Below are positions 1 to 14,311 of a DNA stretch of 64,000 nucleotides, piece after piece. The notes beneath the pieces were generated by a model. It had not been told where the DNA came from and made no database searches. It saw only the letters and a program-made list of their open reading frames with translations. Each line of letters opens with the position of its first letter. Within the stretch, counting starts at the first letter, position 1. The stretch is from positions 6,788,553-6,852,552 of the forward strand of contig NZ_KI912266.1 in the NCBI RefSeq assembly GCF_000235425.2, read 5' to 3'. This DNA comes from Pseudofrankia saprophytica. GTDB taxonomy: Bacteria; Actinomycetota; Actinomycetes; Frankiales; Frankiaceae. The translations under genes and the position numbers were made by a program.

Positions 1-95
1 GCGAACGCGGACTTGCCGTCGCAGGTGCCGTAGCGGCTACCGAGCACGCCTACGGCCGTGGATGACCCGGAGGCGGAACCGTACTGAGCGGACAT
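1..95 (-). CDS. Small conserved protein, 5' part only (runs off window)
   Basis: The first 31 codons read MSAQYGSASGSS... then VLGSRYGTCDGKSAFA and run off the left edge. The segment GSRYG-C-GK/R-AFA matches the 79-residue protein encoded at 7009-7248 almost position by position, so the two are paralogues. An SD-like GGAGAGG lies about 7 bases before the ATG. The DNA upstream of both genes is also similar (about 96-200 versus 7249-7360), including a shared GAGCCTCAGGCTCAGC stem-loop, so the duplicated unit carries its own control region. Function unknown. By analogy with the other copy, a SpoIIE-type phosphatase gene may follow outside the window; this is inference. Confidence 0.6.
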   Translation of the reverse strand, partial: MSAQYGSASGSSTAVGVLGSRYGTCDGKSAF

Positions 96-386
96 GAGGT
101 GCCTCTCCAAGGGAGTTCACCGACGTGCCCGGGCTGAGCCTGAGGCTCGTAGAGCCGCGACGCTGATGCGCGGCAGGCCGGATTGTTTCCCAGTGACCTA
201 AGCTTACGCCGCCTCTGCCCAACTGCCGACCCGGGACCGTACTGAACCGCGACCGCCAGAGCCAGCGCCATTGGCGTGATCGCCGGTAACGCCCCGCGGC
301 GGTCGTGAAACGGCAACGGTTACCGCCACCGGAGGACCTAAATCGCGATCAAAGGGCCGCCAATCGACCGCGGCAAAATCGGCCAG

Positions 387-920
387 GTGCAGATCGGAAT
401 GCTTGGGCCATTCGAGGTTCGTACGGACGAAGGCGTCCTCGCTGACCTGCCGGGCGCCCGGTCGCGCGCGCGGTTGATCGCTCTCGCGCTCGATCCAGGT
501 CACGAGGTCCCGAAGGCGACGCCCGTCGACCGGATTTGGGGTGAACGTCCGCCGTCAGAGGCGGCGAATGCCCTGCAACGCCTGGTTTCCCGGCTGTGGA
601 GGGCGCTGCCGGAAGGGGCGGTCGAGGGCAGACGGACGGCTCCCTGCTGAGGGTGGAACCCGGCGCCGTCGACGCCGTGCGGTTCGAACGCCTCGTCGAC
701 CAGGCCCACGATGACGGGGACCCGCGGTGGGTACGACTGCTGCGTGAGGCCCTTGCCCTGTGGCGCGGTACGGCCATACAGGACGCCGGGCTGCAGGACA
801 GCGCGGCGTTTGACGCGGCGCGCAGGTGTAGCCCGCCGACGACCGCCTGATCGGCCGAGCCCGCCGGTCACCGCACTACCGCTCCTTCGTCACCTGCCAC
901 GCCATTTGCCGGCCTCCTCC
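387..920 (+). pseudogene. Broken BTAD/SARP-type transcriptional regulator remnant
   Basis: A GTG at 387 opens an 87-codon frame with the winged-helix DNA-binding part of AfsR/SARP-type regulators (MLGPFEVR..., then DRIWGERPPSEAANALQRLVSRLW). It stops at about 650. The reading continues in another frame from about 596 to 850 with a BTAD-like stretch (GSLLRVEPGAVDAVRFERLV, LLREALALWRG). A third frame after about 840 (ADDRLIGRARR) resembles the next BTAD helix. At least two frameshifts have therefore separated the pieces, and no ATPase or TPR domain follows. It is called a pseudogene because each piece aligns to consecutive parts of one family. The 3' limit is approximate. Sequencing errors are a less likely alternative, as two separate shifts would be needed. 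Confidence 0.7.
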
Positions 921-988
921 CCGTCGATCAGGAGCGAAGCGGGGTGTCGACGTGACCGGCTGACGCGGTCCGGGGAGGCTCACCCGGT

Positions 989-2257
989 ATGAACGGTCGA
1001 GCAGGGAGAAGAGGCACCAATGGTACAGGTGGCGGCCGGTCTAGCAAGATCATGGTGGATCGGTCGGAGGGATTCGGTGAGCGACTGCTGGGTGTGCTGC
1101 TGGACCGCGCTCACGAGATGCCGCCACAGCTGATTGCCCCACTGGTGGCGGAAGAGATCGGCAGGATCGGCGGGCGAGACATCTCGATCCTTCTGCAGGA
1201 CTATGAGCAGCTGATACTCACGCCGCTGCCGGGCAGGAGCCTCGCGGTCGGGAAGCCCGAGCCGATCGACGACTCCCCCGCCGGCACGGCATTCCTCCGC
1301 GCGATGACTGTCGAGCAGCCACAGGCTGACGGTACGCGAATGTACCTGCCGCTGCTGGACGGTAGCGACCAGGTGGGGGTACTGGCGTTTACTCTCGACA
1401 CGGTCGATGATGATGACCGCCGGTTGCTGGGGCGACTCGCCGGCCTTGTCGCCGACATGTTGGTGACCAAGAGCAGCTACACCGACCAGTTCTTCCAGGC
1501 CCGGCGTCTCGAACCGATGAGTGTCGCCGCGGAGATCCAGTGGTCGCTGCTGCCTCCGCTGACCATGATCACCCCGCAGGTCGCGGTGGCCGGCATTCTC
1601 GAACCCGCCTACAACATCGCGGGCGACAGCTTCGACTACGCCCTCAACGACGACATCCTTCACATGGTCATCATCGACGCGATGGGCCACGACCTGGACG
1701 CCGCGGTGCTGGCGACGGTCGCGATCGGCGCCTACCGGCACGCCAGACGTGCCGATATCGGGCTTGCCGACCTGTACACGTTCATGGACGCAGCCATCCA
1801 CAAGCAGTTCGGTACCGATCACTTCGTCACAGCGCAGATGATGCGTCTGGATATCGGAACAGGTCACTTGCAGTGGGTTAACGCAGGCCATCCGGCGGCG
1901 TTGCTGATCCGCGATCGCAAGGTTATCCAGGCGCTGGAGAGCCCTGGGACCCTGCCGATCGGCTTCGGTGGTGACATACCGCAGGTCAGTGAGCAGACGC
2001 TCCTACGCGGCGACCGGGTGCTGTTCTTCACCGATGGCCTCGTCGAGGAGCATGAGACGGGCGGGCAGCAGTTCGGCGAGGAACGCCTGATCGACTTCGT
2101 CGAGAGTGCCCACGGAAACAGTGTGCGGGAGACGGTGCGGAGTCTGTCCCACGCGTTGATGCGGGAACGGCGCGGGATCACGACCGACGACGCGACGCTC
2201 TTCCTGGTCGAGTGGTGCGGGGGCACCGCCGACCATCTCGCGAGCATAGATATCTAA
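989..2257 (+). CDS. GAF-like sensor with SpoIIE-type PP2C serine phosphatase
   Basis: A 422-residue regulator. Residues about 25-150 look like a GAF-type sensor, and residues about 190-415 form a PPM/SpoIIE phosphatase domain. The acidic metal ligands are visible: D213 in AGDSFDY, D230 in IDAMGHDLDAA and D400/D401 in TTDDATLF, together with the family motifs WVNAGHPAALL and FFTDGLVEE. Such enzymes dephosphorylate STAS-domain anti-sigma antagonists in partner-switching systems, probably in the cytoplasm since no membrane segment is seen. The start is supported by a GGGGAGG about 9 bases before the ATG. The STAS-HhH gene 2361-3173 converges on it from the other strand and is a plausible but unproven partner. 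Confidence 0.9.
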   Translation: MNGRAGRRGTNGTGGGRSSKIMVDRSEGFGERLLGVLLDRAHEMPPQLIAPLVAEEIGRIGGRDISILLQDYEQLILTPLPGRSLAVGKPEPIDDSPAGTAFLRAMTVEQPQADGTRMYLPLLDGSDQVGVLAFTLDTVDDDDRRLLGRLAGLVADMLVTKSSYTDQFFQARRLEPMSVAAEIQWSLLPPLTMITPQVAVAGILEPAYNIAGDSFDYALNDDILHMVIIDAMGHDLDAAVLATVAIGAYRHARRADIGLADLYTFMDAAIHKQFGTDHFVTAQMMRLDIGTGHLQWVNAGHPAALLIRDRKVIQALESPGTLPIGFGGDIPQVSEQTLLRGDRVLFFTDGLVEEHETGGQQFGEERLIDFVESAHGNSVRETVRSLSHALMRERRGITTDDATLFLVEWCGGTADHLASIDI

Positions 2258-2360
2258 TCTGGCAAGAGCTGGTCCCGCCCGGCTGTCCCATGCCGGTCAC
2301 CGGCGCGAGGGCTCGCATCCGGCCACCGTGGTGGACGACCTGAGGTGAGGGCCGCGGATG

Positions 2361-3173
2361 TCAGGCGGGGCGCAATGTGTTGGCGGTCTTCGCCGCGTCG
2401 ATCCAGGCTTGAATCTGCCGCTCGGAGAGCCCGACAACCGGCCCGTGCCGGTCCTCGATCATCTTCTTCAGGTTGGCGGCGTTGCGACGCCCCAACTCCC
2501 TGATCGAGGCGACACCGATCTCCTCAAGGATCGTCCGATATCGGGCGCCGATGCCCTTGATCCTGTCGAGATCGCCTTCGCGGGCCTGGTGGCCACCGCT
2601 GTTGGTCGTGGTCATGGTGCTCCCCCTTTCCTGGGGAGTTCGGCGTGCGGGATGGACGTCGAGCACCGCGACCAGACCGGCCGCGACGAGCTGCTCGAAG
2701 ACGGCGGGCCGGGCGCCGCGCACACTGATCCATTTCTGGCGGCGAGCCGCCAGGGAAGCGGCGCCGGCCAGCACATCCAGGCCCGCCACGTCGAGGACCG
2801 GCACGTCGCCGAGGTCGACGACCAGCAGCGGCTCCCCCGCGTGCATTCCATGGTCGAGGGCGGTCTGAAGCGCGGTGCCCGCGGCGCCGGCCATGCCGCG
2901 AACGTGGATGGTCGTGACCTGATCACGGTGCGAGGTGAAGATCCGGGCTCCTGCCGCGGCCGATACGACCTCACCATAAGTGACCTTGAGACGTTGAGTG
3001 TCGTTGTACGTCCCGAGCTGGGCAAGGGCGCGGGCCCGGTCAGTGTCGCCGAGTGGTCCCAGGAGAACATCGAGGAGGTCCCGTCGATACTCCACTACGC
3101 TCGCCAGATCCCATCGGACGGGCGATGGCTGGGATACAGCGGATCGACCGGCGGCAGGCCCCACGCGGACCAT
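2361..3173 (-). CDS. STAS domain joined in frame to a helix-hairpin-helix domain
   Basis: From the ATG at 3173 (GAGG seven bases upstream) the protein has about 270 residues. Residues about 80-175 are STAS-like, with VVDLGDVPVLDVAGLDVL where the family normally has D-S-S-G-L, so the phosphorylatable serine is missing. Residues about 200-265 (DLDRIKGIGARYRTILEEIG..., RNAANLKKMIEDRHGPVVGL) form a small HhH domain of the DUF4332/HHH type. An internal ATG at 2615 has its own strong SD (GGGGGAG) and gives an 83-residue HhH-only protein like the stand-alone gene at 10304-10558. Two products, or one fusion, are both possible. A longer frame from 3284 exists but lies in sequence conserved as leader. 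Family assignments are firm; cellular role is inferred. Confidence 0.75.
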   Translation of the reverse strand: MVRVGPAAGRSAVSQPSPVRWDLASVVEYRRDLLDVLLGPLGDTDRARALAQLGTYNDTQRLKVTYGEVVSAAAGARIFTSHRDQVTTIHVRGMAGAAGTALQTALDHGMHAGEPLLVVDLGDVPVLDVAGLDVLAGAASLAARRQKWISVRGARPAVFEQLVAAGLVAVLDVHPARRTPQERGSTMTTTNSGGHQAREGDLDRIKGIGARYRTILEEIGVASIRELGRRNAANLKKMIEDRHGPVVGLSERQIQAWIDAAKTANTLRPA

Positions 3174-3199
3174 GGGAAAACCTCGACGGGGATAGCGAT

Positions 3200-3440
3200 A
3201 CCGAGGCACTCGAAACGTTCGGGCAGGCTCACAGGCAACGTCCCATGGACGATCACCGATGGCGCCCGAGCGTGAGCGGAACACTCGCGGTCTCGCGGCA
3301 GTTACGCGGCGTTTCCGATCCCGAGCCGGCTATTTGCCTAGCTGGTTCAGCATAGCGCGAAAATTCCTGATTGTCGACCGGCGCAAAACGCCTCGCAGGA
3401 TCCCGCGGCCCTGATCCGTGCCAGCTGATCGAGAACCAAA
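3200..3440 (-). promoter_or_regulatory. Conserved promoter and leader of the STAS-HhH cassette
   Basis: On the minus strand this segment is clearly similar to 10600-10855 upstream of the second HhH gene. Both contain TCGACA, 17 bases, then TATGCT, a good -35/-10 pair for a housekeeping-like sigma factor, followed by about 100 bases of shared leader including CGGGATCGGAAACGCCGC. The conservation extends past the promoter, so the leader may itself be a regulatory RNA or protein-binding region. Promoter elements are read by eye. Confidence 0.5.
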
Positions 3441-3593
3441 AACCATCATCATACAAGGGCGGACGCACTGTGGTACAGTGAAGATCGGCCGGAATCCTAC
3501 GAATCCGGAATTCTGCGAATGTCGACGCCAGGTTGGTGTCAGCACCGGCCGTGGCCATCCGGCGGCTCTTATCGCCGGAGTTAGGCGGCCGTC

Positions 3594-4133
3594 ATGACGA
3601 CGGGCCGAACTTCCGCACTTCTCGACGAGGTCGACGCCGCGCGCTTCGACGGCGACGGCGGCGCACCCACCAAGCTCCAGGTCACCCTCGCGGACATGCG
3701 TCCCGAGCCGGTCGGCGGCGGTGAGCTACGGCTGTCACTGGCCCCGGCCCGCGGCCGGGAATCCTTCGACGGCGCCTGGTGGCCACGGACCTGGCACCTG
3801 GCCAGCGAGCTTCCCCCGCTCGTCGCCGCGTTGTCCGCCACGGGTGAGGCGCCCGGCCGGATGTCGGTCAACGGTGACATCTGGACCGACATCCCCCGCG
3901 TGCTTCCACGACCGGGCCGCCCGCCGCTGCGGATCAGCTGGTTTCGCGCCCTCGACCCCCACACGGTCACGCTGGGCGGCGCCAACCGAACACGCCTCTT
4001 CCTTCTCGTGATACCCCCCGACGCTGCCCCGGAGGCGGGGGAAGAGGTGCTCCAGATGGCCGCCACCGGCCGGCTGTCCGGCCCAGCTGGCCAGATACTG
4101 CGCCACGCGGGCGCCGCGCCATCACCAGAATGA
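3594..4133 (+). CDS. DUF5994 family protein
   Basis: A 179-residue soluble protein. The central block LRLSLAPARG...FDGAWWPRTWHLASELPPLVAAL, the later ISWFRALDPHTVTLGG and the FLLVIPPDAAPEAGEEVL segment are the hallmarks of the actinobacterial DUF5994 family. No catalytic motif or membrane segment is seen, and the family has no established function. It stands alone on the plus strand between the divergent STAS-HhH promoter region and a GAF-ANTAR gene. In actinomycetes such genes often sit among ANTAR and STAS regulators, as here, which suggests a stress-linked role (inference). Confidence 0.75.
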   Translation: MTTGRTSALLDEVDAARFDGDGGAPTKLQVTLADMRPEPVGGGELRLSLAPARGRESFDGAWWPRTWHLASELPPLVAALSATGEAPGRMSVNGDIWTDIPRVLPRPGRPPLRISWFRALDPHTVTLGGANRTRLFLLVIPPDAAPEAGEEVLQMAATGRLSGPAGQILRHAGAAPSPE

Positions 4134-4232
4134 CCACGGACCGCCCCGCCCGCTGACAACGGTCCGGTCCTCGCCGGCTGATCAGGCGGAAAAGCGCTCG
4201 CCAGACCGGCGCGACGCGACTCTCGAGATGTC

Positions 4233-5078
4233 ATGCTCGGCACGAACCTGGGGGCAACCCATGCTGGTAACCCGACCATGACCGTGTTCGACGATGGCAT
4301 CGCCAGGCCGACCCAGGAGCTGAGTTCCGAGCAGGCGCGGGCGGATGCCCTCGACCTGCGGGCGGGCCTGGCCGGTCTCGCTGGTCTGGTGTCCGGTTCC
4401 CTGGACCTTCAGGAGCTGCTGACCCGGGTGGCGAGCTTCGCCGCCCAGGCCATCCCAGGCGCCGACGGCGCCGGGGTGACGTTGCTGCGTCTCGACCGGG
4501 ATGACGACCGTATCGAGGCACTGGCGGCCAGCGCGCCGTTCGTCCGGGACATCGACGAGATCCAGTATGCGGTCCTCAACGAAGGTCCCTGTATCACCGC
4601 GACCCTCGACCGGCGCACGGTCCGCTCGGGATCACTGGGCGGCGAACGGCAGTGGCCCCGCTTCGGCCCCCGGGTCGGCCGCCTCGGTGTGCACAGCGTG
4701 CTGTCACTGCCGTTGTTGCTACCCGACCAGGTGGTTGGCGCGATCAACGTCTACGCCCACGGCAAGGACGTCTTCGACGACCACGCCGCCGAACTCGGCG
4801 AGCTGTTCGCGGCCCCGGCCGCGGTCGCGGTGCACAACGCCCAGGTGCTGGCCCAGGCGCTGAACCTCACGATCCAGCTGCAAGCCGCCCTGTCGACCAG
4901 GCCGGTCATCGATCAGGCCATCGGGCTGCTGCGCGGCCGCACCGGCGGGACCGCGGAAGAGGCATTTGCCCGGCTGCGCGCGATCAGCCAGCGCGAGAAC
5001 GTCAAACTCGCCGCCGTCGCCCAGCGCATTGTCGATGAGGCGGTCCGCCGGGCCCGAGCCCGCAATCGCGAGATATAG
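4233..5078 (+). CDS. GAF and ANTAR domain transcription antiterminator
   Basis: About 281 residues. A GAF sensor covers residues about 45-195 (LDLQELLTRVASFAAQAIPGADGAGVTLL, later VLSLPLLLPDQVVGAINVYA). A C-terminal ANTAR domain covers about 210-270 (STRPVIDQAIGLLRGRTGGTAEEAF, LRAISQRENVKLAAVAQRIV). ANTAR proteins bind paired hexaloop hairpins in nascent RNA and prevent termination; the GAF part is presumed to sense a small ligand or partner. Start is either the ATG at 4233 or the ATG at 4278 (MTVFDDG); neither has a decisive SD. A second ANTAR gene follows on the same strand after about 180 bases. Confidence 0.9.
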   Translation: MLGTNLGATHAGNPTMTVFDDGIARPTQELSSEQARADALDLRAGLAGLAGLVSGSLDLQELLTRVASFAAQAIPGADGAGVTLLRLDRDDDRIEALAASAPFVRDIDEIQYAVLNEGPCITATLDRRTVRSGSLGGERQWPRFGPRVGRLGVHSVLSLPLLLPDQVVGAINVYAHGKDVFDDHAAELGELFAAPAAVAVHNAQVLAQALNLTIQLQAALSTRPVIDQAIGLLRGRTGGTAEEAFARLRAISQRENVKLAAVAQRIVDEAVRRARARNREI

Positions 5079-5256
5079 CTCGGTCCTCGGTGCCTCCGCG
5101 GCGGCGCGGCCGGCTCGACCGAGTAGCCTGAAGATGGCACCCACGGATCCGGGGCCCTGACTCGTGTCCGGTGCCCCACCAAGCACCGCGACCCGCGGTA
5201 CTCGGCTTTGTGGCCGAAAAGGGCGTTCGGGGACGCCGTTTCGGAGTACCCCCGTC

Positions 5257-5943
5257 GTGGATATTTCCACTGCTTTGGCGGCGGACCTCGCCGCTCTCAC
5301 CGAATCGCTCGACGAACCGGGCGCGGATATCTCACGAACCCTGCGACAACTCGCCGCCGACGCCAAGAGCGCCGTAGGATCCTACCTCGGTCTCTCGGCC
5401 ATACTCTCCGCCGGAGAGAATTCCCTGATTTTCACCGTGCTCGAGGACGATGCCGAGCGCGAAGACATCCGTGCCTCGCTAAGAATGTCCCTTCCCCCGA
5501 GTACTCCCGCAGCTGAGGATCCGGCGGCTACGACTTCTCTGATCCTCTTCGCCGCGGCTCCCGGAGCGTTCCTCGACCTCGCGACCGACCTGAGCTGGCT
5601 GACCAACGACAGCGGCGGCCTCGGCACCACCGGATTCGTACTCGACGAGGACCTCACGGTGCCGCGCGACCCGGCCGCGCCCAGCGGGCTGAAGACCCAG
5701 TCGACAATCGACCAGGCCGTCGGCGTGCTGATCGGCAGAGGCAACACCCCCGAGCAGGCATATCAGCACCTCGACATGCTGGCCGCCGACGCCCGCGTCG
5801 GCCGGCCCACCGCGGCCGAGGCGATCCTTGCCGAGCTGGACGGGCCGAGCTGGACAGATCTGGGTGCCGACGACGGGCGCCCGGCGCACCCACAAGGGCC
5901 CGACGGCGAGGCGATACCGACCCTGCCGCCACGGGACCCATAG
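5257..5943 (+). CDS. ANTAR domain protein with short N-terminal sensor-like region
   Basis: From a GTG at 5257 (GGAG about nine bases upstream) the protein has 228 residues and begins VDISTALAADLAALTESLDE. An upstream in-frame GTG at 5164 would add 31 unconvincing residues. Residues about 1-140 form a compact GAF-like or unknown sensor region. Residues about 145-200 (GLKTQSTIDQAVGVLIGRGN, later EQAYQHLDMLAADARVGRPT) are the ANTAR RNA-binding domain. The tail is Pro- and Asp-rich. Together with the preceding GAF-ANTAR gene it forms a same-strand pair, although the 180-base gap leaves a common transcript uncertain. It would act in the cytoplasm on leader RNAs; targets are unknown. Confidence 0.8.
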   Translation: MDISTALAADLAALTESLDEPGADISRTLRQLAADAKSAVGSYLGLSAILSAGENSLIFTVLEDDAEREDIRASLRMSLPPSTPAAEDPAATTSLILFAAAPGAFLDLATDLSWLTNDSGGLGTTGFVLDEDLTVPRDPAAPSGLKTQSTIDQAVGVLIGRGNTPEQAYQHLDMLAADARVGRPTAAEAILAELDGPSWTDLGADDGRPAHPQGPDGEAIPTLPPRDP

Positions 5944-5979
5944 CGCCATCCGGCTGTCGGGACCAACTGTCATCCTCAG

Positions 5980-6999
5980 TCAGATGTCAGACCGTGCCGG
6001 CGGGGGCGCGGGAGACTCCTGTCGAGCCACGTCGATCGCGCGCAGCGCGAGAACAGCGATGTCGTCGGCATGGGGGCCACCGGTGAAGGCGAGCACATCC
6101 GCCTCAACGGCATCCACGAGGTCGTGCGCGCTGAGCTGCCCCGTCGCGGCGAGGAGAGCTCGGAGGCGTTCCTCGCCGTACTGTTCGCGGCCCCGTCGAG
6201 CTTCGGTGACACCGTCCGTATACAGCAACAACGTAACTCCCGGCCGCAGGGTCACGCGCACGTTCTTCAGGCCGGAGTTGTCGAACAGACCCAAGGGCAG
6301 ACCGTGATGCCCGATGGCGCGCACCGAACCGGCGGCGCTTCTCAGCAGCGCGGGCATATGCCCCGCCGACGCGAGGAGCGCGCGGGCTCCACCTGGGCCG
6401 GGAAACAGCATGACGTAGGTGGCGGTGAGGAAACGCTCGCTACCAGGACTCCGGGTGAGAAGCGCCGTATTCAGGCGGTCGAGCACCCGCGACGGAGTCT
6501 TCTCGGTCGTCGCGACGGCGCGGATCGTGTAACGCGCCAACGCCGCGATCATCGCTGCTTCCGGGCCATGGCCGCTGACGTCCCCGATCACTGCATCCCA
6601 CCGTTCCGACTCCGGTTCACGCCGTACGTGTACTCGGCCTGTGCTGCTCCTGGAGCCGGTGTCGCCGCGCGTCCGCACCGGGAACACGTCGTAGAAGTCG
6701 CCAAGCGCCCCCAGGCCGTCAGCCGCCGGCAGGCTACGCGCGGCGACCTCCATGCCTGGAACACCAGTCGTCCGTGGCGGCAGCAGACCCATGTGCGGGG
6801 CCAACCCCTGGGCCACAAGCACTCCTAGCCGCTCCGCCGCGCGGCCCGCGCGCGCGGTGTCCTCGCGCCGTCCCAGCTCCCCCGCCGCGACGGTCGCGAG
6901 ACCTTCGGTTGAGCCGCCACTTCCTTGTGCCACGCGCGATCCGGACCGAACGGCGGCCGCACGCGCCACCGTCGCGTCGGCCCGATCATGGGGCAGCAC
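5980..6999 (-). CDS. SpoIIE-type PP2C serine phosphatase
   Basis: A 339-residue protein with a GTG start only nine bases after the stop codon of the small gene 7009-7248, so the two are probably co-translated. The phosphatase domain fills residues about 80-325 and shows all core motifs: LGDFYDVF (metal ligand about D101), IGDVSGHGPEAA, ASAGHMPALL, LLYTDGVTEARRG and HADDIAVLAL. There is no obvious sensor domain in the 75-residue N-terminal part, only an Ala/Arg-rich region, so activity may be set by a partner such as the small protein (inference). Likely substrates are phosphorylated STAS antagonists. Confidence 0.9.
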   Translation of the reverse strand: MLPHDRADATVARAAAVRSGSRVAQGSGGSTEGLATVAAGELGRREDTARAGRAAERLGVLVAQGLAPHMGLLPPRTTGVPGMEVAARSLPAADGLGALGDFYDVFPVRTRGDTGSRSSTGRVHVRREPESERWDAVIGDVSGHGPEAAMIAALARYTIRAVATTEKTPSRVLDRLNTALLTRSPGSERFLTATYVMLFPGPGGARALLASAGHMPALLRSAAGSVRAIGHHGLPLGLFDNSGLKNVRVTLRPGVTLLLYTDGVTEARRGREQYGEERLRALLAATGQLSAHDLVDAVEADVLAFTGGPHADDIAVLALRAIDVARQESPAPPPARSDI

Positions 7000-7008
7000 G
7001 GCGCGGGC

Positions 7009-7248
7009 TCAGGTCAGGCCGGTAGCGGCCAATGCCTCGGCCAACGTCGACCAGCCGGAGCCGATCAGCAACCACCCGTCGTGGCCCACGCGCGGACTGG
7101 TGGGATCGTGCACCTTGACCTGCCAGCTGCCAGCGCTGGTCTCCCTGGCGAACGCGGCCCTGCCGCCACACCTGCCGTATCGGCTACCGAGCACGTGCGT
7201 CGGCGTGGGCATGGAGAGCGCGGATGTGGAACCGTTCTCAGCGGACAT
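7009..7248 (-). CDS. Small conserved protein coupled to a SpoIIE-type phosphatase
   Basis: A 79-residue soluble protein of unknown family. Its middle reads HVLGSRYGRCGGRAAFARET, followed by SWQVKVHD and a C-terminal GWLLIGSGWSTLAEALAA. A paralogue begins at the left edge of the window (<1-95) with the same VLGSRYG-C-GKSAFA core. AGAGG lies about seven bases before the ATG. The stop is nine bases from the GTG of the phosphatase gene, arguing for one transcript and a functional link. No signal peptide or membrane segment is seen. Candidate roles are a phosphatase partner or sensor; this is inference. Confidence 0.7.
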   Translation of the reverse strand: MSAENGSTSALSMPTPTHVLGSRYGRCGGRAAFARETSAGSWQVKVHDPTSPRVGHDGWLLIGSGWSTLAEALAATGLT

Positions 7249-7825
7249 GAGGTGCCTCTACAGAAGAGATCACCGAGGCGCCCGGCGCTGAGCCTGAGGC
7301 TCGTGGGGCGGCGACACTGACGCGCGGCGACCCCAGCCCGAGCTGGCTGTTTCCCAGCGGGGTCATCGTACGCCGTCCCTATCCCGTTGTCCGGCTCCGG
7401 ACGGAACGATCAGACCTCTGAAATGCCAGAGGGCGGCGGGAAATCCCGTCTCGACAGCCACGTCAATGGCCGCTCGTAGTCTTCACGTGCTCCGTGCTGA
7501 ACGGATCGCCGGACGACCGCCGAAGGGCGCCGGGCGATCGTACTCGCGGCCAAGGCCAGTTCGAGTCCGCCCGGCCGGCGAGGCTGTTGCCGCCGGGGCT
7601 GCGATCGTCCGGAGGCAGCGCGGCGCATCGCCGGTCAACGCTCTGCTCGACGACGCCGCTGTCGCCGAGCAGAGCAGCTGGAGGCCGGCGGGGCCCGCAC
7701 CACCGGCGAACCCGGGGACCCAGCTCGTCGAAGGTCAGGGGTACCGCGGCGCACCGTCACCTGCGTGTCCATGCTGTAGGGAGGAGCCGAGTCGGATCGG
7801 GTTCCGTCCGCCCGGAAGTGCCCGG
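7249..7825. other. Gene-free stretch upstream of the small-protein gene
   Basis: The first 110 bases repeat the region at 96-200, including the GAGCCTCAGGCTCAGC stem-loop and CTGGGAAACA on the minus strand, and so are probably control DNA. No convincing gene is seen in the rest; open frames here lack family motifs. Confidence 0.5.
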
Positions 7826-8317
7826 CTACTGGCCTACGGACATTGCGGAGACCAGCCTGCGGGCCTGGCCGACGAAGCGGTGTTCGATCAGGACCTCGTA
7901 TTTTGTCGCGACGACCCGGCTGATCGAGGAGAAGTCCCGGGCACCACCGTGGGTTGCGGCGCGGAATCCGATCTGGCTCCAGACCAGTCCAAAGGCCGCG
8001 CCCAGGAAAGGAGTGGTAATCAGGAATCCGATCTGGTTCTGTGTGCTGAAAAGCGCGAAGGCGATGCCGACGAACAAACCCATCCAGAGGCCGGAGACCG
8101 CACCCGCGATCGCGGCCTTGCCGTGGGTGAGGCGCCCGGTGACGCGCTCGACCGACCTCAGTTCGGTACCGACGATGACGACGTTCTCGACGGGGAAATC
8201 GTGGTCGGCCAGGTAGTCGACCACGTACTGGGCCCGGGGATAGTCGTCGTATATCCCCAGCGATATCGGATCTTCCAGGTTCAGCGCTGGACGCGGACCG
8301 TCGGGTTGGGTGGTCAC
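7826..8317 (-). CDS. General stress protein 17M-like membrane protein
   Basis: A 163-residue protein. The N-terminal half (LGIYDDYPRAQYVVDYLADHDFPVENVVIVGTEL in parts, then SVERVTGRLTHGKAAIAG) matches the domain of the YflT/general stress 17M family. Two hydrophobic stretches follow (GAVSGLWMGLFVGIAFALF and FLITTPFLGAAFGLVWSQIG), so residues about 70-125 probably form a membrane hairpin, and a short C-terminal part resumes the soluble fold (ATKYEVLIEHRFVGQARRLV). Such proteins are induced by general stress in actinobacteria; the biochemical role is unknown. The gene lies near GlsB, DoxX and STAS genes on the same strand. Confidence 0.85.
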   Translation of the reverse strand: MTTQPDGPRPALNLEDPISLGIYDDYPRAQYVVDYLADHDFPVENVVIVGTELRSVERVTGRLTHGKAAIAGAVSGLWMGLFVGIAFALFSTQNQIGFLITTPFLGAAFGLVWSQIGFRAATHGGARDFSSISRVVATKYEVLIEHRFVGQARRLVSAMSVGQ

Positions 8318-8435
8318 TTCTTGTGCCTCATTCCGAGAGGAGATTCCGGAGCTGGCGAGATGGAGCGTCCCGTTCTCCGCCCGGCCGTCCGCCCTGGTCC
8401 CCGCGGACGGTGCAGGGCGACACGAAGACGGCTTC

Positions 8436-9110
8436 TCATGCGAGCCAGGGCAGGCGTCGTACCAGTGGGGTCGCTACCCAGGCGCGGCCCAGTCCCAGCG
8501 TGCGGCCGGCGCCCAGGCAGGCGAGGACGACCAGCACGGCGGCGTAGATGAGGTGCTCGTCCATGAACGGGTTGCTGGCCGACGGGAGGACGGCGCTCCA
8601 CATCATGACGGTCAGGACTGCCCCGGCGGTCGCGGCCAGCCACATCCCGATGCCGAGCATCAGCGCCGCGCCGATCGCGAGCAGTGCAACCATGAACAGC
8701 ACGTCAGCGAAGGCCGTGCCGGCCAAGGAATGGTAGAAGCCCGTGAACGGGCCCTTGGCGGCGGAGCCGAGGAATCCCTTGGTAGGGCTGCCGCCGTGGA
8801 TCCAGGCCTTCGCCGAGGTCGTGTCGTGGCCCAGCCCGAACGCCTTGTCCAGGAACGCCCACAGGAACACCCAGCCCAACGCGAGCCGGACGACCGCCAG
8901 CAGGTAGCGGACGACCGGAGCCGAGTCTCCACCGCCGGCGGCCGTCGAGACCGGCTGTTGTCCGGGCGCGGATGGCCGGTCTGCATGGTTCTGGGATGCC
9001 ATGCTGGCTGACCGGGCTTCGGCGTCATCGACGGCCGGCCGCGTCATGGTGCCAACGGGTCGGTCGATGGTCTCCACCGGGGCGTGGTGATTCTTGGCGA
9101 TGTCGACCAT
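8436..9110 (-). CDS. DoxX-like membrane protein
   Basis: From the ATG at 9110 (AAGGA about 11 bases upstream) the protein has 224 residues. After a polar N-terminal part of about 65 residues come four hydrophobic segments typical of the DoxX/thiosulfate-quinone oxidoreductase large-subunit-like family: YLLAVVRLALGWVFLWAFLD, then about residues 125-150, 155-180 and a last one (LIYAAVLVVLACLGAG). The central loop contains GLGHDTTSAKAWIHGGSPTK and GPFTGFYHSLAG, characteristic of actinobacterial members. Function in this clade is not established; a redox or stress role is assumed. A longer in-frame extension to 9299 exists but lacks conserved features. Confidence 0.85.
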   Translation of the reverse strand: MVDIAKNHHAPVETIDRPVGTMTRPAVDDAEARSASMASQNHADRPSAPGQQPVSTAAGGGDSAPVVRYLLAVVRLALGWVFLWAFLDKAFGLGHDTTSAKAWIHGGSPTKGFLGSAAKGPFTGFYHSLAGTAFADVLFMVALLAIGAALMLGIGMWLAATAGAVLTVMMWSAVLPSASNPFMDEHLIYAAVLVVLACLGAGRTLGLGRAWVATPLVRRLPWLA

Positions 9111-9368
9111 CGCGCTCACGTTCCTTCGATTCTCGTCGATCGGGTCCGCGGGCGAGCGGCAGATGACCCTCGAAGCCCGGGAAAGACACCTTGACCCGCT
9201 GGTCGTTCCACGGAACGAAGACCAGCGGCAGGCTAAGGACGGCGACGAAAAAGATGGTCGCCGTTCAGGTTCGACCAGTGCGCGTGGAGCGCACGACATG
9301 CCGGCGAGGCGCGGGCTGCGTGTTGTCCGATGCAGGCGGCCGGAGGTCCGGCGACGCGTCGGTGGCGG

Positions 9369-9824
9369 TCATGACGACGCCCCGTCCTGGGCCCAGCTGG
9401 TAAGTGCGCCGGCGGGACCGCCGACCGCGGCGGGTATCAGAGTCCCCATGACCGGTGCGGGACGCACATCCAGCCGTTCAACCAGGCGGGTCAGCGCGAA
9501 CAGCCGGTAGATACGGGGGCGGGCGCCGATGACCATGATCGGGATGTCGGCACGGGCCGCCCGGTTCGCCGCGTCGAACAGGACTCCCAGCCCGCAGGCG
9601 CCCAGAACCGACACGCCGCCAAGGTCGACGACCAGCAGCAGGGGCGCCCGGTCCAGGCCAGCGCTCAACGCCGCGCGGAACGCGGCCCGGGTCGCCAGGT
9701 CGATCTCACCGTGTGCACGCACGATCGTTCTGTCGGGCGGCGCGTAGATGTCGGCATGAAATCGGGAGACGAATCTGTCCGGGCGCTGCGCCAACGCCTC
9801 GGACGTGTGGGCGGGGGTTTTCAT
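9369..9824 (-). CDS. STAS-domain anti-sigma factor antagonist-like protein
   Basis: About 151 residues from the ATG at 9824, which lies six bases after the stop of the GlsB gene, so translation is probably coupled. Residues about 20-125 are a STAS fold (TIVRAHGEIDLATRAAFRAAL, LLLVVDLGGVSVLGACGLGV, AARADIPIMVIGARPRI). In active antagonists the loop reads D-S-S-G-L with a phosphorylated serine. Here it is G-A-C-G-L (A76, C77), so normal kinase control is unlikely. It may act as a constitutive binder or have a different partner (inference). The start is uncertain because no SD is visible. Confidence 0.8.
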   Translation of the reverse strand: MKTPAHTSEALAQRPDRFVSRFHADIYAPPDRTIVRAHGEIDLATRAAFRAALSAGLDRAPLLLVVDLGGVSVLGACGLGVLFDAANRAARADIPIMVIGARPRIYRLFALTRLVERLDVRPAPVMGTLIPAAVGGPAGALTSWAQDGASS

Positions 9825-9829
9825 CACGA

Positions 9830-10153
9830 TCAGCGGCGCGAGGTCGTGCGCCGACGCCGCCGAGGCGAGCGGTTCGACGCGCGCCGTCGAGGCGAGCGGC
9901 CCGACCCGCCGGTCACCAGGCGCACGGCCAGCAGCACGATGACGGCCCCGACGATCGCGGTGATCCACGTCGACAGGCTGAAGAACGTGTCGAGCGACTT
10001 GACATTGAAGATCATCTTGGCGAGCCAGCCACCGAGCAGGGCGCCGACGATCCCGGAGACACCCGCGACCACCCAGCCCGTCCGCTCTCCGGTGAGCTTC
10101 TCGGCGATCAGGCCAGCGACGAGCCCCAGTACGATCCAGGCGATGATGCCCAT
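9830..10153 (-). CDS. GlsB/YeaQ/YmgE family stress membrane protein
   Basis: A 107-residue protein starting MGIIAWIVLGLVAGLIAEKL, the signature first helix of the GlsB/YeaQ/YmgE (transglycosylase-associated) family. Two further hydrophobic helices follow (GWVVAGVSGIVGALLGGWL and WITAIVGAVIVLLAVRL). The C-terminal 20 residues are an Arg-rich tail (RSPRRRRRTTSRR) not usual in the core family, which may contact membrane lipids or nucleic acid. AGGGA stands six bases before the ATG. It precedes the STAS gene by only five bases, indicating a two-gene unit. The family is linked to general stress; its molecular action is not known. Confidence 0.9.
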   Translation of the reverse strand: MGIIAWIVLGLVAGLIAEKLTGERTGWVVAGVSGIVGALLGGWLAKMIFNVKSLDTFFSLSTWITAIVGAVIVLLAVRLVTGGSGRSPRRRASNRSPRRRRRTTSRR

Positions 10154-10303
10154 GTTTTCCCTGCTATTCGTTGTTGGCCGGCTGTTTTTAGTGCACCGGC
10201 GGGCACTCGCCGCGTCATCCCCAGGTTGTCGTGCAGTGGAGCGGCGTGGCGGGGTGTGGTGGTATCAGGCGGCCATGGTGGGCGACCGGATGAACCGCGG
10301 ATA

Positions 10304-10558
10304 TCAGGCAGGACGCGATGCTCCGACGGTCCTTGCCTTGTCGATCCAGGTTTGAATCTGTAGCTCGGTGAGCCCGATGACCGGCCCGTGCCGGTCCTCG
10401 ATCATCACCTTCAGGTTCGCGGCGTTGCGGTGACGTAGTTCCCTGATCGACGCGACCCCGACTTCCTCCAGGATCGCGCGGTACCTGACGCCGATGCCCT
10501 TGATCTTGTCCAGATCGCCTTCGTGAGCCTGGTGGCGGTCGATGTCGGTCGCACTCAT
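10304..10558 (-). CDS. Small helix-hairpin-helix domain protein
   Basis: An 84-residue protein, essentially one HhH domain: GDLDKIKGIGVRYRAILEEVG, SIRELRHRNAANLKVMIEDR and HGPVIGLTELQIQTWIDKAR. It is a close paralogue of the C-terminal part of 2361-3173. GGGAGT lies five bases before the ATG. The KGIG turn is the expected hairpin; such domains bind DNA or RNA backbones or mediate protein contacts, but the role of this free-standing version is unknown. Here the gene follows directly on the leader that, in the other copy, is interrupted by a STAS coding segment. Confidence 0.8.
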   Translation of the reverse strand: MSATDIDRHQAHEGDLDKIKGIGVRYRAILEEVGVASIRELRHRNAANLKVMIEDRHGPVIGLTELQIQTWIDKARTVGASRPA

Positions 10559-10880
10559 GAGACTCCCTTTCCTGGGAGTTCAGCGTGCGGGAAAAAGGAA
10601 ACACCGGCGGAAACGACGACACCAAGGCGCCGGAAAAATTGGGGAAACTTCACGGGCAACGTCCCAGGGGCGATCACTGGTGGCGCTCGAGCGTGAGTAA
10701 CACACTCGCGGTCTCGCGGCAGCTATGCGGCGTTTCCGATCCCGAGCCGGCTATTTCCTAGCTACTTGAGCATATCCCGAAAACGCCTGGTTGTCGACCC
10801 GGCGCGAAACGCACCGCACGATCCCACGGCCCGTACCGCGCCAAGAGCCGGTTGTTTTGACCAGCACCCGGGCTCAGGAG
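10559..10880 (-). promoter_or_regulatory. Promoter and leader of second HhH cassette
   Basis: This 322-base gene-free stretch aligns with the leader at 3174-3440. It carries TCGACA, 17 bases and TATGCT on the minus strand, the shared CGGGATCGGAAACGCCGC, and then the sequence CCCGCACGC-GAACTCCC-AGGAAAGGG before the start codon. Relative to the first copy it lacks exactly the STAS coding segment. Confidence 0.5.
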
Positions 10881-11900
10881 TCACGGAGTCCTCGACCCGA
10901 GTAGGCGCCGGGCGTGCTGCTCCGTGGAGAGCAGGGCGAGGGTGGCCGCCGCCCCCTGGTTGGCGTTGCGTCCTCCGGGTTCGAGGCCGTCGTGGCAACC
11001 GCCGGTCGTGGTGTCGACCAGCGGCGTGCCGGCGTCGTTCTCGCCGAGGAACCAGCCGTGGGCCTGCCCGAGACCGGTGAGCCAGTCGCGCTGGCCGGTC
11101 GCCGCGTGGGCCCGCGCGCAGGCGTCCGCGATGGCCGCCGCCTCGATGGGCTGCTGGTCGAAGCCAGGCCTGAGATCACCCCTAGGGCGCCGGCCGCCGA
11201 CGGGGGTCAGCGACAGAATGTCGCCCCGGGTCTCCACGTAGAGCAGCCAGGCCAGCAACCGCAGACCGTTCGCACCTGCCGTCCGGTCGGACAGGCACAT
11301 GCCGGCCAGGATCAGCGCCTCCGGCACCGCCGCGTTGGCATAGCGCAGCGTGGGGTCCGGCCAGGGCCATCCGGGATCATCCTTGATCGGGCCGATCTCG
11401 GTAACCGCGTCGGCGAGCAGAGTACGAGCCGGCTCGTCGTCCGGGTGGGCCAGCAGCAGCTCGCCCGCTCCGAGCGCGGCGAAGGTCATGGCCCGCGGCC
11501 AGGGGGAACGGCGGGCGGCACTGACCTGGAACCCGGCCCGGGCCCGCGCCCGCAGCCGCCGGGTGGGCGCCAGCGCCGCCGCGGTACCCAGCCCCCACAG
11601 GGCCCGGCCCCAGCAGTCACCAAGTTCGGGGTCGTCCCACCAGCGGCCTTCGCTGTCGCGCCGGTTGGCAACCATGCCGTCCGGCGCCTGCGCCGCCAGC
11701 ACGAAGTCGAGATAGAGGTCCAACAGCCGGATGAGTTCCGGAAGCAGCGACGGCTCGCGGGAGAGGACCACCAGCCCGCGCGCGACGTCGTCCACGCAGT
11801 ACCCGTGCTCCCGGCGCGGCGCCGAGCCCAGAGCACGTCGGAACAGGCCGATGTCGTCGCTGAGCCGGAAGAGATGAGCGAACGAGATCGCCGGCGTCAC
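10881..11900 (-). CDS. Conserved actinobacterial protein, probable alpha/alpha-toroid fold
   Basis: A 339-residue soluble protein starting at a GTG that overlaps the stop of the XRE-TPR gene in a GTGA junction. Helical repeats with recurrent motifs run throughout: FAHLFRLSDDIGLFRRALGS, HGYCVDDVARGLVVLSRE, WWDDPELGDCWGRALWGLG, FDQQPIEAAAIADACARAHA, GWFLGENDAGTPLVD and GLEPGGRNANQGAAATLALL. These resemble six-hairpin glycosidase-like proteins that actinobacteria encode beside glycosyltransferases. A carbohydrate-related role is likely but unproven, as no family catalytic pair can be assigned by eye. Overlap with the regulator gene suggests the two are made together. Confidence 0.65.
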   Translation of the reverse strand: MTPAISFAHLFRLSDDIGLFRRALGSAPRREHGYCVDDVARGLVVLSREPSLLPELIRLLDLYLDFVLAAQAPDGMVANRRDSEGRWWDDPELGDCWGRALWGLGTAAALAPTRRLRARARAGFQVSAARRSPWPRAMTFAALGAGELLLAHPDDEPARTLLADAVTEIGPIKDDPGWPWPDPTLRYANAAVPEALILAGMCLSDRTAGANGLRLLAWLLYVETRGDILSLTPVGGRRPRGDLRPGFDQQPIEAAAIADACARAHAATGQRDWLTGLGQAHGWFLGENDAGTPLVDTTTGGCHDGLEPGGRNANQGAAATLALLSTEQHARRLLGSRTP

Positions 11901-13255
11901 CGGGCCGCCGTGGTCTCGGCGAGCTGCTGATCGAGGTCGCGGGCAGCCGAGACGGACGGGTGCCGGCGCAGGCGGCGGCGGATCTCGTCGGCGCGCCGCG
12001 CGTTGCGCCGGGACCGGGTGACCGCCAGTAGTGGGACGGCCTGGGCGGCCAACGCGCAGCCGGTGTCGAGGTTGCCCAGGTCGATCTGCACACCCGCGCG
12101 GCGCAGCAGGTAGGTCGCCCGATCGCGCGGTTTCTCGGCCGGGTGGGCCGCCTGTGCCTGGCTGAGCCATCCGTCGGCGGACAGCAGGTTTCCTAGATCG
12201 ATGTAGCAGCAGCCAATCTGAGCCTGGAACTCGGCCTCGTCGAAGTAGCACGCCCAGGCTGGCTCCTGCGTCGTCGCCTGGTCGAACGCGGCCTCGGCGA
12301 TGCCGAGTTCGCGCTGGCAGGAGGCTTCGTCGACGAGCGCCGCGTGTGCCCGGGCCTGGCGCATGTGCAGCATCGCGCCGACCCGGCCGGTGGTGCCGCC
12401 CGCCGTGCGCACGGCCGCCTCCGCCAACCCGAGTGCCTCGACGGGTTGAGAGAAGTCGATGCACTGCAGCGACATGTTCTTCAGCACGTTCGCGCCGAGC
12501 AGGCGGTCACCGCCGATGTGCGCGGCGTGCAGCGCGGTCGCCCAGTAGCGCTGCGCGCCCGTCTGGAATCCGGCGTCGAAGGAGACCCAGCCGGCGAGCC
12601 GGGCGAGCTCGGCCGCCACGATGTGCAGCTCACGGCCGATCCGCTCGGAGAAGCGGCCGCGGGCGAGCAGCTCCGTCACCACCCCGAGCTCCGCGTCGAC
12701 GAGCCGGCGCACGCTCCCCCCGCCGAGCCGGTCGTCCATCACCCGCAGGCCGGGGATGTTGTGCGCCATCCGGTGCACGATCTGATCATCGACAAGACCG
12801 CCGTCCAACGCGCCGGCCAGGCAGGCGGGCCCCAGCCCCAGCCACTGGTCGGCGAGCGCGGCGACGCTGGCGCCGTTGATGGCGAGGAAGCCGCGACGGT
12901 CGTTTACCGCGTCCTGGACGACATTGATCATCGAGGTCAGACTGCCGGCCTGGGTCCACGGGTAGTCGATGCGGACGTCTTCACCGGTGGGCAGCCAGGA
13001 CGGCCACGGATGGGACTCTAACCGCTCGATCGGCACGCCCAACTCGGTCGCCAACGCCAACTGCGAGACCCGGTCCGGCACGACGCCGCGGTGCTCCCAG
13101 CGCCACACCTTCTGCCGCTCCGCGGCCATGTTCCCCTCGCCGAGGTCGCGAGCCCTCTTGGCGACGACCCGGGCGAGCTTCTGATAGGACCACCCCCGCT
13201 GGACGCGGACGAACGTCAGTGGATGCGCGCAGGCCTGGATGTGCTGCGTCATCAT
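11897..13255 (-). CDS. XRE-family regulator with TPR-like C-terminal region
   Basis: A 452-residue protein from the ATG at 13255 (GGAGG eight bases upstream); the longer frame to 13489 adds only low-complexity residues. Residues about 10-75 form an XRE-type helix-turn-helix (THPLTFVRVQRGWSYQKLARV is the nearest by pattern, then RQKVWRWEHRGVVPDRVSQL). After a linker, residues about 190-440 consist of TPR-like helical pairs (FDAGFQTGAQRYWATALHAA, ARAHAALVDEASCQRELGIA, FQAQIGCCYIDLGNLLSADG). This layout is common in large paralogous sets in Frankia and Streptomyces and usually controls adjacent genes or responds to peptides. The 4-base overlap with 10881-11900 shows a bicistron. Confidence 0.85.
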   Translation of the reverse strand: MMTQHIQACAHPLTFVRVQRGWSYQKLARVVAKRARDLGEGNMAAERQKVWRWEHRGVVPDRVSQLALATELGVPIERLESHPWPSWLPTGEDVRIDYPWTQAGSLTSMINVVQDAVNDRRGFLAINGASVAALADQWLGLGPACLAGALDGGLVDDQIVHRMAHNIPGLRVMDDRLGGGSVRRLVDAELGVVTELLARGRFSERIGRELHIVAAELARLAGWVSFDAGFQTGAQRYWATALHAAHIGGDRLLGANVLKNMSLQCIDFSQPVEALGLAEAAVRTAGGTTGRVGAMLHMRQARAHAALVDEASCQRELGIAEAAFDQATTQEPAWACYFDEAEFQAQIGCCYIDLGNLLSADGWLSQAQAAHPAEKPRDRATYLLRRAGVQIDLGNLDTGCALAAQAVPLLAVTRSRRNARRADEIRRRLRRHPSVSAARDLDQQLAETTAAR

Positions 13256-14311
13256 CGGTGATCCTCCATCCCAGCCGCCGCCACAGGCAGAACACGGTAG
13301 GGAACGACGGCCAGGCATAGACAGACTCCGCGGTCTGCCGTAGTCGGAGCGAGGATGACGGCAGCCACCATGCATGTCTCCTTGGACGCGCCGGAACAGG
13401 CACTCAGACAGGGAAGGCGGGGGACCGTGCCCCCGCCTTCTCCCGGGCCCGTCGCGCGCGCCGAAAGCTTCGGCGGGTCTGATCACCACCTCGGCGTGGT
13501 GATCTGTCGGCGGACACTACGCCAGATGCATACGCCTTTGCATGTGCAGTGCCACAGCCAGCCCACGAATCATCCATAAGGCCACGAGTGAATAACGACA
13601 GCGGGTCGACAGCGGTACCAAACCGATACACAACGATGTAGGGGGTGACCCGTCGGCCGACCAATCCGACATCTCAGACAAGGTCGCTATTTCGCAGCCA
13701 GAGGTTCGCATCCGGACCTGCGATCCAGAAGAACTCTTCTCCGCCCGTCGAACGGATTGAGCTGATTGAGCTGATTTTTATCAGCACGACAATGCTCTCG
13801 GCCGATGCACCGCCACCACGCGATCCCCGCAACCGGCACGCCGCAACCACGCTCCGTAACGCCGGCCGTAAAAGCACCCGGCACACCCTTACAGCAGGGG
13901 GGAGCCGGCCGGATGGGCCCGGATCCGGGGTTCCGGCCCCCGGATCCGGGGGCCGTTCATGATCTGGTGGGATCTTCGGAGTGATAGCTCCCAAAATTCC
14001 ACCAGATCATGAAAGCGACACCGACCATGATCTTGAGTGACGCCCATGAGGTAGGCGAGGCCGCGTAGGTCACATAGGTCGCAGCCTCCGCGGTATTTCG
14101 GGCGCGTTGGAGCATGGGCCGTGACGGTTTCGCGGACGAGTGAGTGGGTCCGGATGAGTGGGTGAGTCCGGATGAGTTCGGGTGCGAGTCGCTCTGCCTC
14201 GCGAAGCATCGTGAGCGCGTGTGCGTCCTTCTTCCGGCATGGCAAGCTGTTCGTCGAGCCGTCCGGCCCGGGACTCGCCCACGACGTAACCGGACCCTTA
14301 ACGGGCACAGC
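13256..14311. other. Gene-poor intergenic region between accessory and core parts
   Basis: No credible coding sequence is seen over about 1.05 kb. The part 13540-13800 is visibly less GC-rich than its surroundings and contains a GCTGAT-TTTT-ATCAGC hairpin near 13770. Two CCCGGATCCGGG palindromes lie near 13919-13950, and a 13-bp inverted repeat spans 13958-14011. Imperfect repeats of GTCCGGATGAGT occur at about 14138-14175. Confidence 0.6.
13958..14011. repeat. 13-bp perfect inverted repeat with 28-base spacer
   Basis: CATGATCTGGTGG at 13958-13970 is matched by its exact complement CCACCAGATCATG at 13999-14011. The core CATGATC recurs once more near 14026. There is no T-tract, so a terminator is unlikely. 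It could be an operator, a remnant end of a mobile element, or part of an interspersed repeat. Confidence 0.7.

Follow-up and report, generated by a model that had tools for sequence, protein, structure and literature searches.

Within a 64,000-nt stretch of Pseudofrankia saprophytica DNA, referred to here as the window, a small cassette occurs twice. A common 5' flank stands ahead of a gene for an HhH (DUF4332) protein in both copies, and STAS coding DNA lies between flank and HhH in copy 1. The locus raises two questions: whether the STAS segment was gained by one copy or lost by the other, and what the common flank itself is.

Two cassette copies and the segment that separates them

Copy 1 (2317-3423) and copy 2 (10264-10843) are both encoded on the minus strand and match at 79% on both sides of the segment present in copy 1 only. 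When the two reverse-complemented regions are compared by blastn, a leader-side block of 247 columns (79%, E 4e-55) is followed by a collinear HhH-side block of 336 columns (79%, E 3e-76). Both blastn and a second alignment listing place the last 5' match at 3178/10599 and the next 3' match at 2652/10592; the gap between these is 525 nt long in copy 1 and 6 nt in copy 2, so that copy 1 carries a net 519 nt extra. A 26-nt leader core occurs twice in the window, while none is expected and none is found in shuffled sequence. The preliminary description was therefore right that these are two copies of one cassette with extra STAS DNA in copy 1, and alignment agrees with where it placed the segment and with its anchors, CCCGCACGC and AGGAAAGGG. 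Compared base by base, the flanks are alike well past the HhH coding part on both sides, and thus the likeness is not limited to that part.

Several of its details need revision. The segment that it called the STAS module is real, except that the first ~80 nt belong to an upstream small frame, STAS itself likely beginning at GTG 3095. CCCGCACGC, taken as neutral flank, codes for the 3' end of STAS ('HPAR'), and the promoter and leader, treated as mere flank, contain the unit that in fact recurs, the leader. The suggestion of one-step microhomology between CCC borders fits the sequence TCCC, which is common to both segment borders; a 4-base match is weak evidence, and the point is left open.

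The GTG at 3095 (V-E-Y-R-R-D) is the most likely start of the STAS frame, and the same start is present in four relatives with an intact STAS. From there a single frame reads through STAS into HhH. The STAS profiles matched in copy 1 are PF13466 (E 3e-8) and TIGR00377 (E 1e-6, under its own cut-off). HhH alone could also be made from an internal ATG, judging from the SD-like sequence AGGAAAGGGGG at 2615. The in-frame fusion of STAS to HhH/DUF4332, with its internal SD-like site and ATG, is seen in two species, here and in F. nepalensis (L023:9262-9990).

Table 1. Positions in the window of the leaders, the two units and neighbouring genes
Feature	Position	Strand	Evidence
RNA leader, copy 1 (5' hairpin P0, three-way junction P1-P2-P3, P4)	3217..3339	-	R2 101.8 bits, E 1.6e-22
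RNA leader, copy 2	10638..10760	-	R2 107.5 bits, E 6.1e-24
RNA leader before 79-aa small protein and SpoIIE-type phosphatase gene	7233..7356	-	R2 100.1 bits; found first with R1, at 7236-7352
Fourth RNA leader, P0/P1 damaged	80..192	-	R2 46.1 bits
Promoter-like site, copy 1: TATGCT (3349-3354), 17-nt spacer, TCGACA (3372-3377)	3349..3377	-	by eye
Promoter-like site, copy 2: TATGCT (10769-10774), 17-nt spacer, TCGACA (10792-10797)	10769..10797	-	by eye
Small frame of copy 1, GTG, 45 aa, opened by leader 1	3095..3232	-	TAG overlaps STAS GTG (TAGTG)
STAS-HhH (DUF4332) fused frame, 244 aa	2361..3095	-	single open frame; profile matches
Small frame of copy 2, GTG, 32 aa	10555..10653	-	TGA overlaps HhH ATG (ATGA)
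Deletion scar TCCCGCACGC..., kept 3' end of STAS coding DNA	10574..10592	-	alignment
HhH (DUF4332) small protein, 84 aa, stand-alone in copy 2	10304..10558	-	PF14229 E 3.9e-8
Transglycosylase-associated (GlsB/YeaQ-type) membrane protein behind copy 2	9830..10153	-	PF04226 E 7e-11
Second STAS gene (STAS2) behind copy 2	9369..9968	-	PF01740 E 5.7e-13
79-aa small protein, opened by the 7233-7356 leader	7009..7248	-	without Pfam or NCBIfam match
SpoIIE-type phosphatase gene behind the 79-aa small protein	5980..6999	-	PF07228 E 2.3e-47
GAF-ANTAR gene, divergent, near leader 1	4233..5078	+	PF03861 E 1.3e-17

The direction of the change was approached by searching for the leader in 35 genomes of the window's family. 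This gave 9 close copies in 5 genomes: the window's own, F. nepalensis CN7, F. canadensis ARgP5, Frankia sp. AiPa1, and Frankia sp. CIT1. Behind every close copy (9/9) there is STAS, a STAS remnant, or HhH sequence. The STAS frame is intact in five (copy 1, F. nepalensis, two F. canadensis copies, and CIT1), and in the other four it is lost or broken, each time differently. Copy 2 has no STAS between leader and HhH. One F. canadensis copy retains just the C-terminal part of HhH (E 0.001), and GlsB (E 1.6e-4) and STAS2 (E 0.03) are left in it as weak remnants. In AiPa1, one copy has the last 27 aligned STAS residues alone, ahead of GlsB, and in the other STAS is broken. The GlsB gene of one F. 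canadensis copy (L024:1425-1534) looks broken, since its two match pieces lie in different frames.

The HhH side of copy 2 opens with CCCGCACGC, which in both copy 1 and F. nepalensis encodes the last part of STAS. Given this scar, copy 2 once had STAS and has lost it. The terminal STAS codons kept in copy 2 and the intact leader-STAS arrangement in five of the nine close copies thus support an origin of copy 2 by deletion of STAS between leader and HhH, which the preliminary description had offered as one alternative. Under its other alternative, an older leader-HhH cassette received a STAS module, and such swapping builds new regulators; this reading can point to a cleanly bounded module with TCCC at both borders. 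Insertion does not account for STAS codons in the copy without the module, and among the seven close copies outside the window, STAS is intact in four and present in pieces in two, and one shows a larger deletion reaching into HhH. We therefore reject insertion on the strength of the scar and regard it as extremely improbable. The preliminary description had also called for a search of related genomes for copies with and without the module; both kinds do occur, and their pattern looks like repeated loss of STAS behind a kept leader, with the cargo changing, rather than like swapping.

F. nepalensis has a single unit, leader-STAS-HhH, followed by a GlsB-type gene such as that behind copy 2. In the window the same parts are divided, with leader-STAS-HhH at one site and leader-HhH-GlsB-STAS2 at the other, which would fit a duplication after which each copy retained a different, complementary set of parts. 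The F. nepalensis HhH sequence is identical to copy 2 at 84.1% of 252 nt and to copy 1 at 77.9% of 249 nt. A search of named genomes confirmed no relatives of the whole STAS-HhH protein; 589 pattern matches were rejected by tblastn.

A probable structured RNA leader ahead of the start codon

The common 5' flank is apparently an undescribed structured RNA leader of about 120 nt, predicted at four places in the window. R1, a covariance model built from the nine close leaders, also found the leader ahead of the small protein and SpoIIE gene, and found it at the same pre-SpoIIE place in the four named relatives and in G027 (L050:6792 and other weak R1 matches were left aside). That leader is part of a repeat pair, 1-174 / 7148-7328. 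The fourth leader precedes a 77-aa relative of the 79-aa small protein, whose frame leaves the left end of the window. Altogether there are 61 distinct model matches. The counts of P0, start codons, hexaloops, and frames use 58 of them, leaving out L080:1501 and L119:1501, which are the same as two L103 matches, and L117, which apparently lies inside a gene.

Several elements make up the leader. A TAYGNT-type -10 hexamer, identified by eye, is positioned some 6-8 bases before P0, and -10-like hexamers, again by eye, stand at similar spacing before leaders. P0 varies among GCUG/CAGC, GCUA/UAGC, GUUG/CAAC, and others. It is present in 54 of 58 leaders (permuted mean 46.6, max 52), a count made with a 5' window widened after the result of a narrower first test, which had given 40/58 and a mean score of 2.63 vs 1.89 +/- 0.15 for permuted sequences. 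When the 5' arm is taken 10, 20, or 30 nt upstream, the count is 22, 6, or 7 of 58. The junction that follows consists of a closing stem P1, a variable P2, and the GAGC/GCUC hairpin P3. In L027:7976 and L103:5549 the bases of P2 are different and still complementary, and P2 of L048:5269 has about 50 nt extra that fold as an extension (energy z -0.09). The last hairpin, P4 (GGUGA...CACC), has a 3' arm that overlaps the Shine-Dalgarno (SD) region. The start codon lies at one place in 53 of 58 leaders (35 ATG, 13 GTG, and 5 TTG), although this place is partly built into the model. Strictly conserved unpaired bases are few, and so a ligand pocket is not evident.

Covariation supports this structure. 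A structure derived from the nine close leaders alone was discarded, since they are too conserved (double changes in 1 of 36 pairs), and the signal appeared once twelve more distant leaders were added. In the resulting sequence-only MAFFT alignment of 21 leaders (A4), 95.9% of the cells are paired, 12 of the 21 pairs show double changes, and the covariation score is 0.430, compared with 0.267 +/- 0.016 for shuffled and at most 0.135 for slid alignments. P1 alone, in a sequence-only alignment of 36 leaders (A7), is 97.0% paired, with 22 double-change cells vs 7.1 +/- 2.0 when shuffled. (The 50-nt insertion of L048:5269 kept this leader out of both A4 and A7.) The model-fitted alignment A6, which contains all of the A7 leaders and takes in 47 of 52 R2 matches (L105, L106, L107, L108, and L109 were not used), has double changes in 17/21 pairs and a score of 0.401 vs 0.225 +/- 0.009. 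For the 16 leaders outside the window's family, also model-fitted, the values are 16/21 pairs and 0.379 vs 0.149 +/- 0.018; four rows of this set are places from which R3 was built, and L117 is included. The compensatory changes span bases up to about 65 nt apart.

Folding energies tell a different part of the story. Those of nine single leader cores are ordinary (z -0.5 to +1.6), seven leader pieces range from z -2.5 to +1.5, and the minimum-energy fold of a middle piece of copy 1 lacks P1. An extra-stable fold was rejected for this reason, and the case for an RNA rests on covariation rather than on stability. In minimum-energy folds, the SD-like 5-mer is paired at 70.9% of positions vs 65.7% when the 5' part is shuffled, and at least 4 of its 5 bases are paired in 29 of 53 leaders vs 50.5% in the control. 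Thus, the idea that P4 hides the ribosome site, which we infer, is backed by covariation and not by folding energies.

The leader does not seem to belong to a known RNA family, for which three scans with the Rfam 15 covariance models gave no support. No match covers the leaders in window 1-14000 (E up to 5) or those in 16 further loci (E up to 1); the few chance matches away from leaders are all below gathering score.

Genes behind the leader and its distribution

At E <= 0.05, model R2 has 44 matches in the window's family, spread over 22 of 35 genomes; for two of the 44, E is above 0.02. In a sample of the class it is present in 27 of 393 genomes at E <= 0.01; 6 are outside the family, and 3 of these have E below 1e-4. 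R3 finds 13 matches in 10 of 401 genomes of a second family, that of G331, at E <= 0.001, one of the 13 being L117. In a phylum sample of 396, R3 matches the window's own genome alone, a result that is also a control against false matches, and in the order of G053, that genome is the sole match among 3. All four leader matches of the window's own genome lie within the first 11 kb of the window. The leader was not found in the plasmids searched, nor its core pattern in the viral contigs searched. G023 has two divergent leader pairs, at L049:803-1114 and L049:4675-4992. One pair lies between two Usp genes; the other separates an ABC transporter gene from a 156-aa frame that has no Pfam match.

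The place of the leader in front of start codons allows the frames that it opens to be compared. In the 53 leaders with the fixed start, the frame is 61-100 aa in 23, more than 100 aa in 14, and at most 60 aa in 16. The middle class is mostly the small protein that precedes SpoIIE in the window. Proteins of this kind are about 75-90 aa long (..GSWQVKVHDP..GHDGW..), and no other frame follows the leader as often within the window's family; two members have no Pfam match and one has no NCBIfam match. Genes of more than 100 aa that are opened directly encode Usp, an ABC ATPase, phosphoketolase, STAS, STAS-ANTAR, glycosyltransferases, and a LuxR-type response regulator; this class also holds two frames that are doubtful, L102 and L095:6609, and the AiPa1 frame continuing into GlsB. 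Further downstream are a second Usp, an Acg/Rv3131-family oxidoreductase (NF047509), P-type ATPases, and STAS genes. A GAF frame downstream of one leader has as its best solved relatives the DosT/DevS-type kinases 2vzw (E 1.5e-47), which we take to be DosT, and 2w3d (E 9.8e-39). Its gene may be broken, as the 270-aa frame ends inside the domain, and a kinase role is suggested by likeness only. Usp, the Acg/Rv3131-family protein, the P-type ATPases, and the GAF frame are presumably Dos-type dormancy genes.

Two members of the shortest class belong there for incidental reasons: window:80 because the locus ends, and a CIT1 leader because its small-protein frame stops early. This CIT1 frame, behind a SpoIIE-type leader (L027:1518-1642), stops after 24 codons and looks broken. 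Where a STAS-type copy has a STAS start (six copies), the leader-opened frame is 45-49 codons long. In four of them its stop codon and the STAS start overlap (TAGTG or TAATG); in AiPa1 b, with its broken STAS, the two are directly adjacent, and in F. nepalensis the stop precedes the start by 6 nt. Three copies have undergone deletion: in copy 2 the frame overlaps the start of HhH, in F. canadensis b it continues into the tail of HhH, and in AiPa1 a it continues into GlsB. That the frame is joined to the next gene in 3/3 is suggestive, the chance being near 1 in 27 if frames were random. In addition, STAS overlaps GlsB by ATGA in three copies, and behind the second-family leaders L110-L112, a 21-aa frame overlaps the P-type ATPase start, also by ATGA.

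Two other observations concern the neighbourhood. The protein encoded at 10881-12464 (-), adjoining copy 2, has no Pfam match and is 48% identical over 327 aa to the product of a gene behind one second-family leader. At 387-850 (+), two overlapping frames suggest a decayed gene; together they read like what we take to be the N-terminal part of a SARP-type regulator.

Proposed mechanism, alternatives and meaning

On balance the common flank is rather probably a structured, cis-acting mRNA leader that governs translation initiation at stress genes. Transcription would begin a few bases behind the TAYGNT-type -10 site, and the RNA would fold into the 5' hairpin P0, the three-way junction P1/P2/P3, and the last hairpin P4, whose 3' arm would lie over the Shine-Dalgarno region with the start codon directly after. 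P4, when formed, would block initiation until a stress signal, acting at the junction, opened it. In STAS-type copies, the leader would open the short frame, which would be coupled to STAS via the overlapping stop and start; after deletion, the leader-opened frame would be coupled to HhH instead. Since the same leader stands ahead of many unlinked stress genes, the leader class would mark a regulon. A more specific proposal, possible but somewhat doubtful, is that this riboswitch-like class senses a small energy- or oxygen-stress signal (or a stress protein) and sets the translation of a whole actinobacterial regulon of the stress/dormancy type, deletions re-plugging STAS, HhH, and GlsB into the switch.

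The flank might instead act as DNA, as an extended promoter with an operator for a stress regulator and no RNA function. It does begin directly behind a promoter-like site, its close copies are very conserved, and single-sequence folding energies are ordinary, also at the SD. Nevertheless, compensatory changes so far apart, the exchange of P2 for another complementary sequence, and a fixed place relative to start codons are unexpected of an operator; furthermore, a simple scan of the 120 nt for GGGAC-N6-GTCCC with mismatches revealed no DosR-type box at a constant place, the best matches being scattered in position. This makes a DNA element unlikely. It is also quite unlikely that the leader works through translation of the short frame, by leader-peptide attenuation or translational coupling, with the RNA fold secondary. 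The frames of at most 60 aa, those that overlap or nearly touch the STAS start, and the overlaps of L110-L112 are what such a mechanism would use. However, the leader opens frames of more than 100 aa, stress genes among them, directly, and with most of the 61-100 aa class being the small protein, a short frame is no general feature.

An ANTAR-target RNA, bound by the adjoining GAF-ANTAR proteins, is very unlikely, although a divergent GAF-ANTAR gene lies near a STAS-type leader in the window and, by tblastn, a relative of it does so in five relative contigs (two cut by the contig end), and one leader (L121) precedes a STAS-ANTAR gene. Actinobacterial ANTAR RNAs often cover the ribosome binding site, according to PMC8164766, and our leader resembles the RNAs described there in being actinobacterial, near the ribosome binding site or start codon, and close to ANTAR genes. 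Single hexaloop hairpins with A1 and G4 are found in 27 of 58 leaders (shuffled mean 16.2, max 22). The defining arrangement of two such stem-loops with a linker of 2-25 nt, however, is found in 0/58 (shuffled mean 1.25), or in 13/58 with one variation allowed (shuffled mean 8.7, max 17), and the conserved core is a three-way junction. An ANTAR target was rejected because its defining hairpins are absent.

The structured leader can also be set beside systems with similar parts. It is like translational riboswitches and other SD-region leaders in its 5' position, its junction-type fold, its last hairpin at the SD region with the start codon just after, and the several genes under one RNA class. 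It is unlike them in having no Rfam match in the leaders scanned, in serving stress genes of many kinds, in its few strictly conserved unpaired bases, and in that hiding of the SD is not borne out by energies. Most known classes of RNA switch serve one metabolic pathway each. The DosR/DevR dormancy regulon is similar in the kinds of genes (Usp, an Acg/Rv3131-family oxidoreductase, P-type ATPases, and a DevS/DosT-like GAF frame); here the mark is an RNA, and the simple scan showed no DosR-type box at a constant place. As in a partner-switching stress locus, STAS (PF01740/PF13466) and SpoIIE (PF07228) genes lie close together, except that in copy 1 and F. nepalensis STAS is fused in frame to HhH/DUF4332. 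Titles and abstract openings of the literature searched contain no description of such an RNA, although an earlier description is possible, and a term search in a survey of 104 RNAs (PMC2864571) found no entry for Frankia, universal stress, or DosR.

The duplicated cassette is thus explained as a kept leader with changing cargo. The work provides a covariance model, defined hairpins, and named species (F. nepalensis, F. canadensis, Frankia sp. AiPa1, and CIT1) in which the leader can be found. In Frankia as well as in some other actinobacteria, this leader precedes many stress genes, whose translation it probably controls. If this is true, actinobacteria would use one RNA signal, shared by Usp, STAS, SpoIIE, Acg-type, phosphoketolase, and P-type ATPase genes through a single class of leader, to set part of their stress response at the level of translation.
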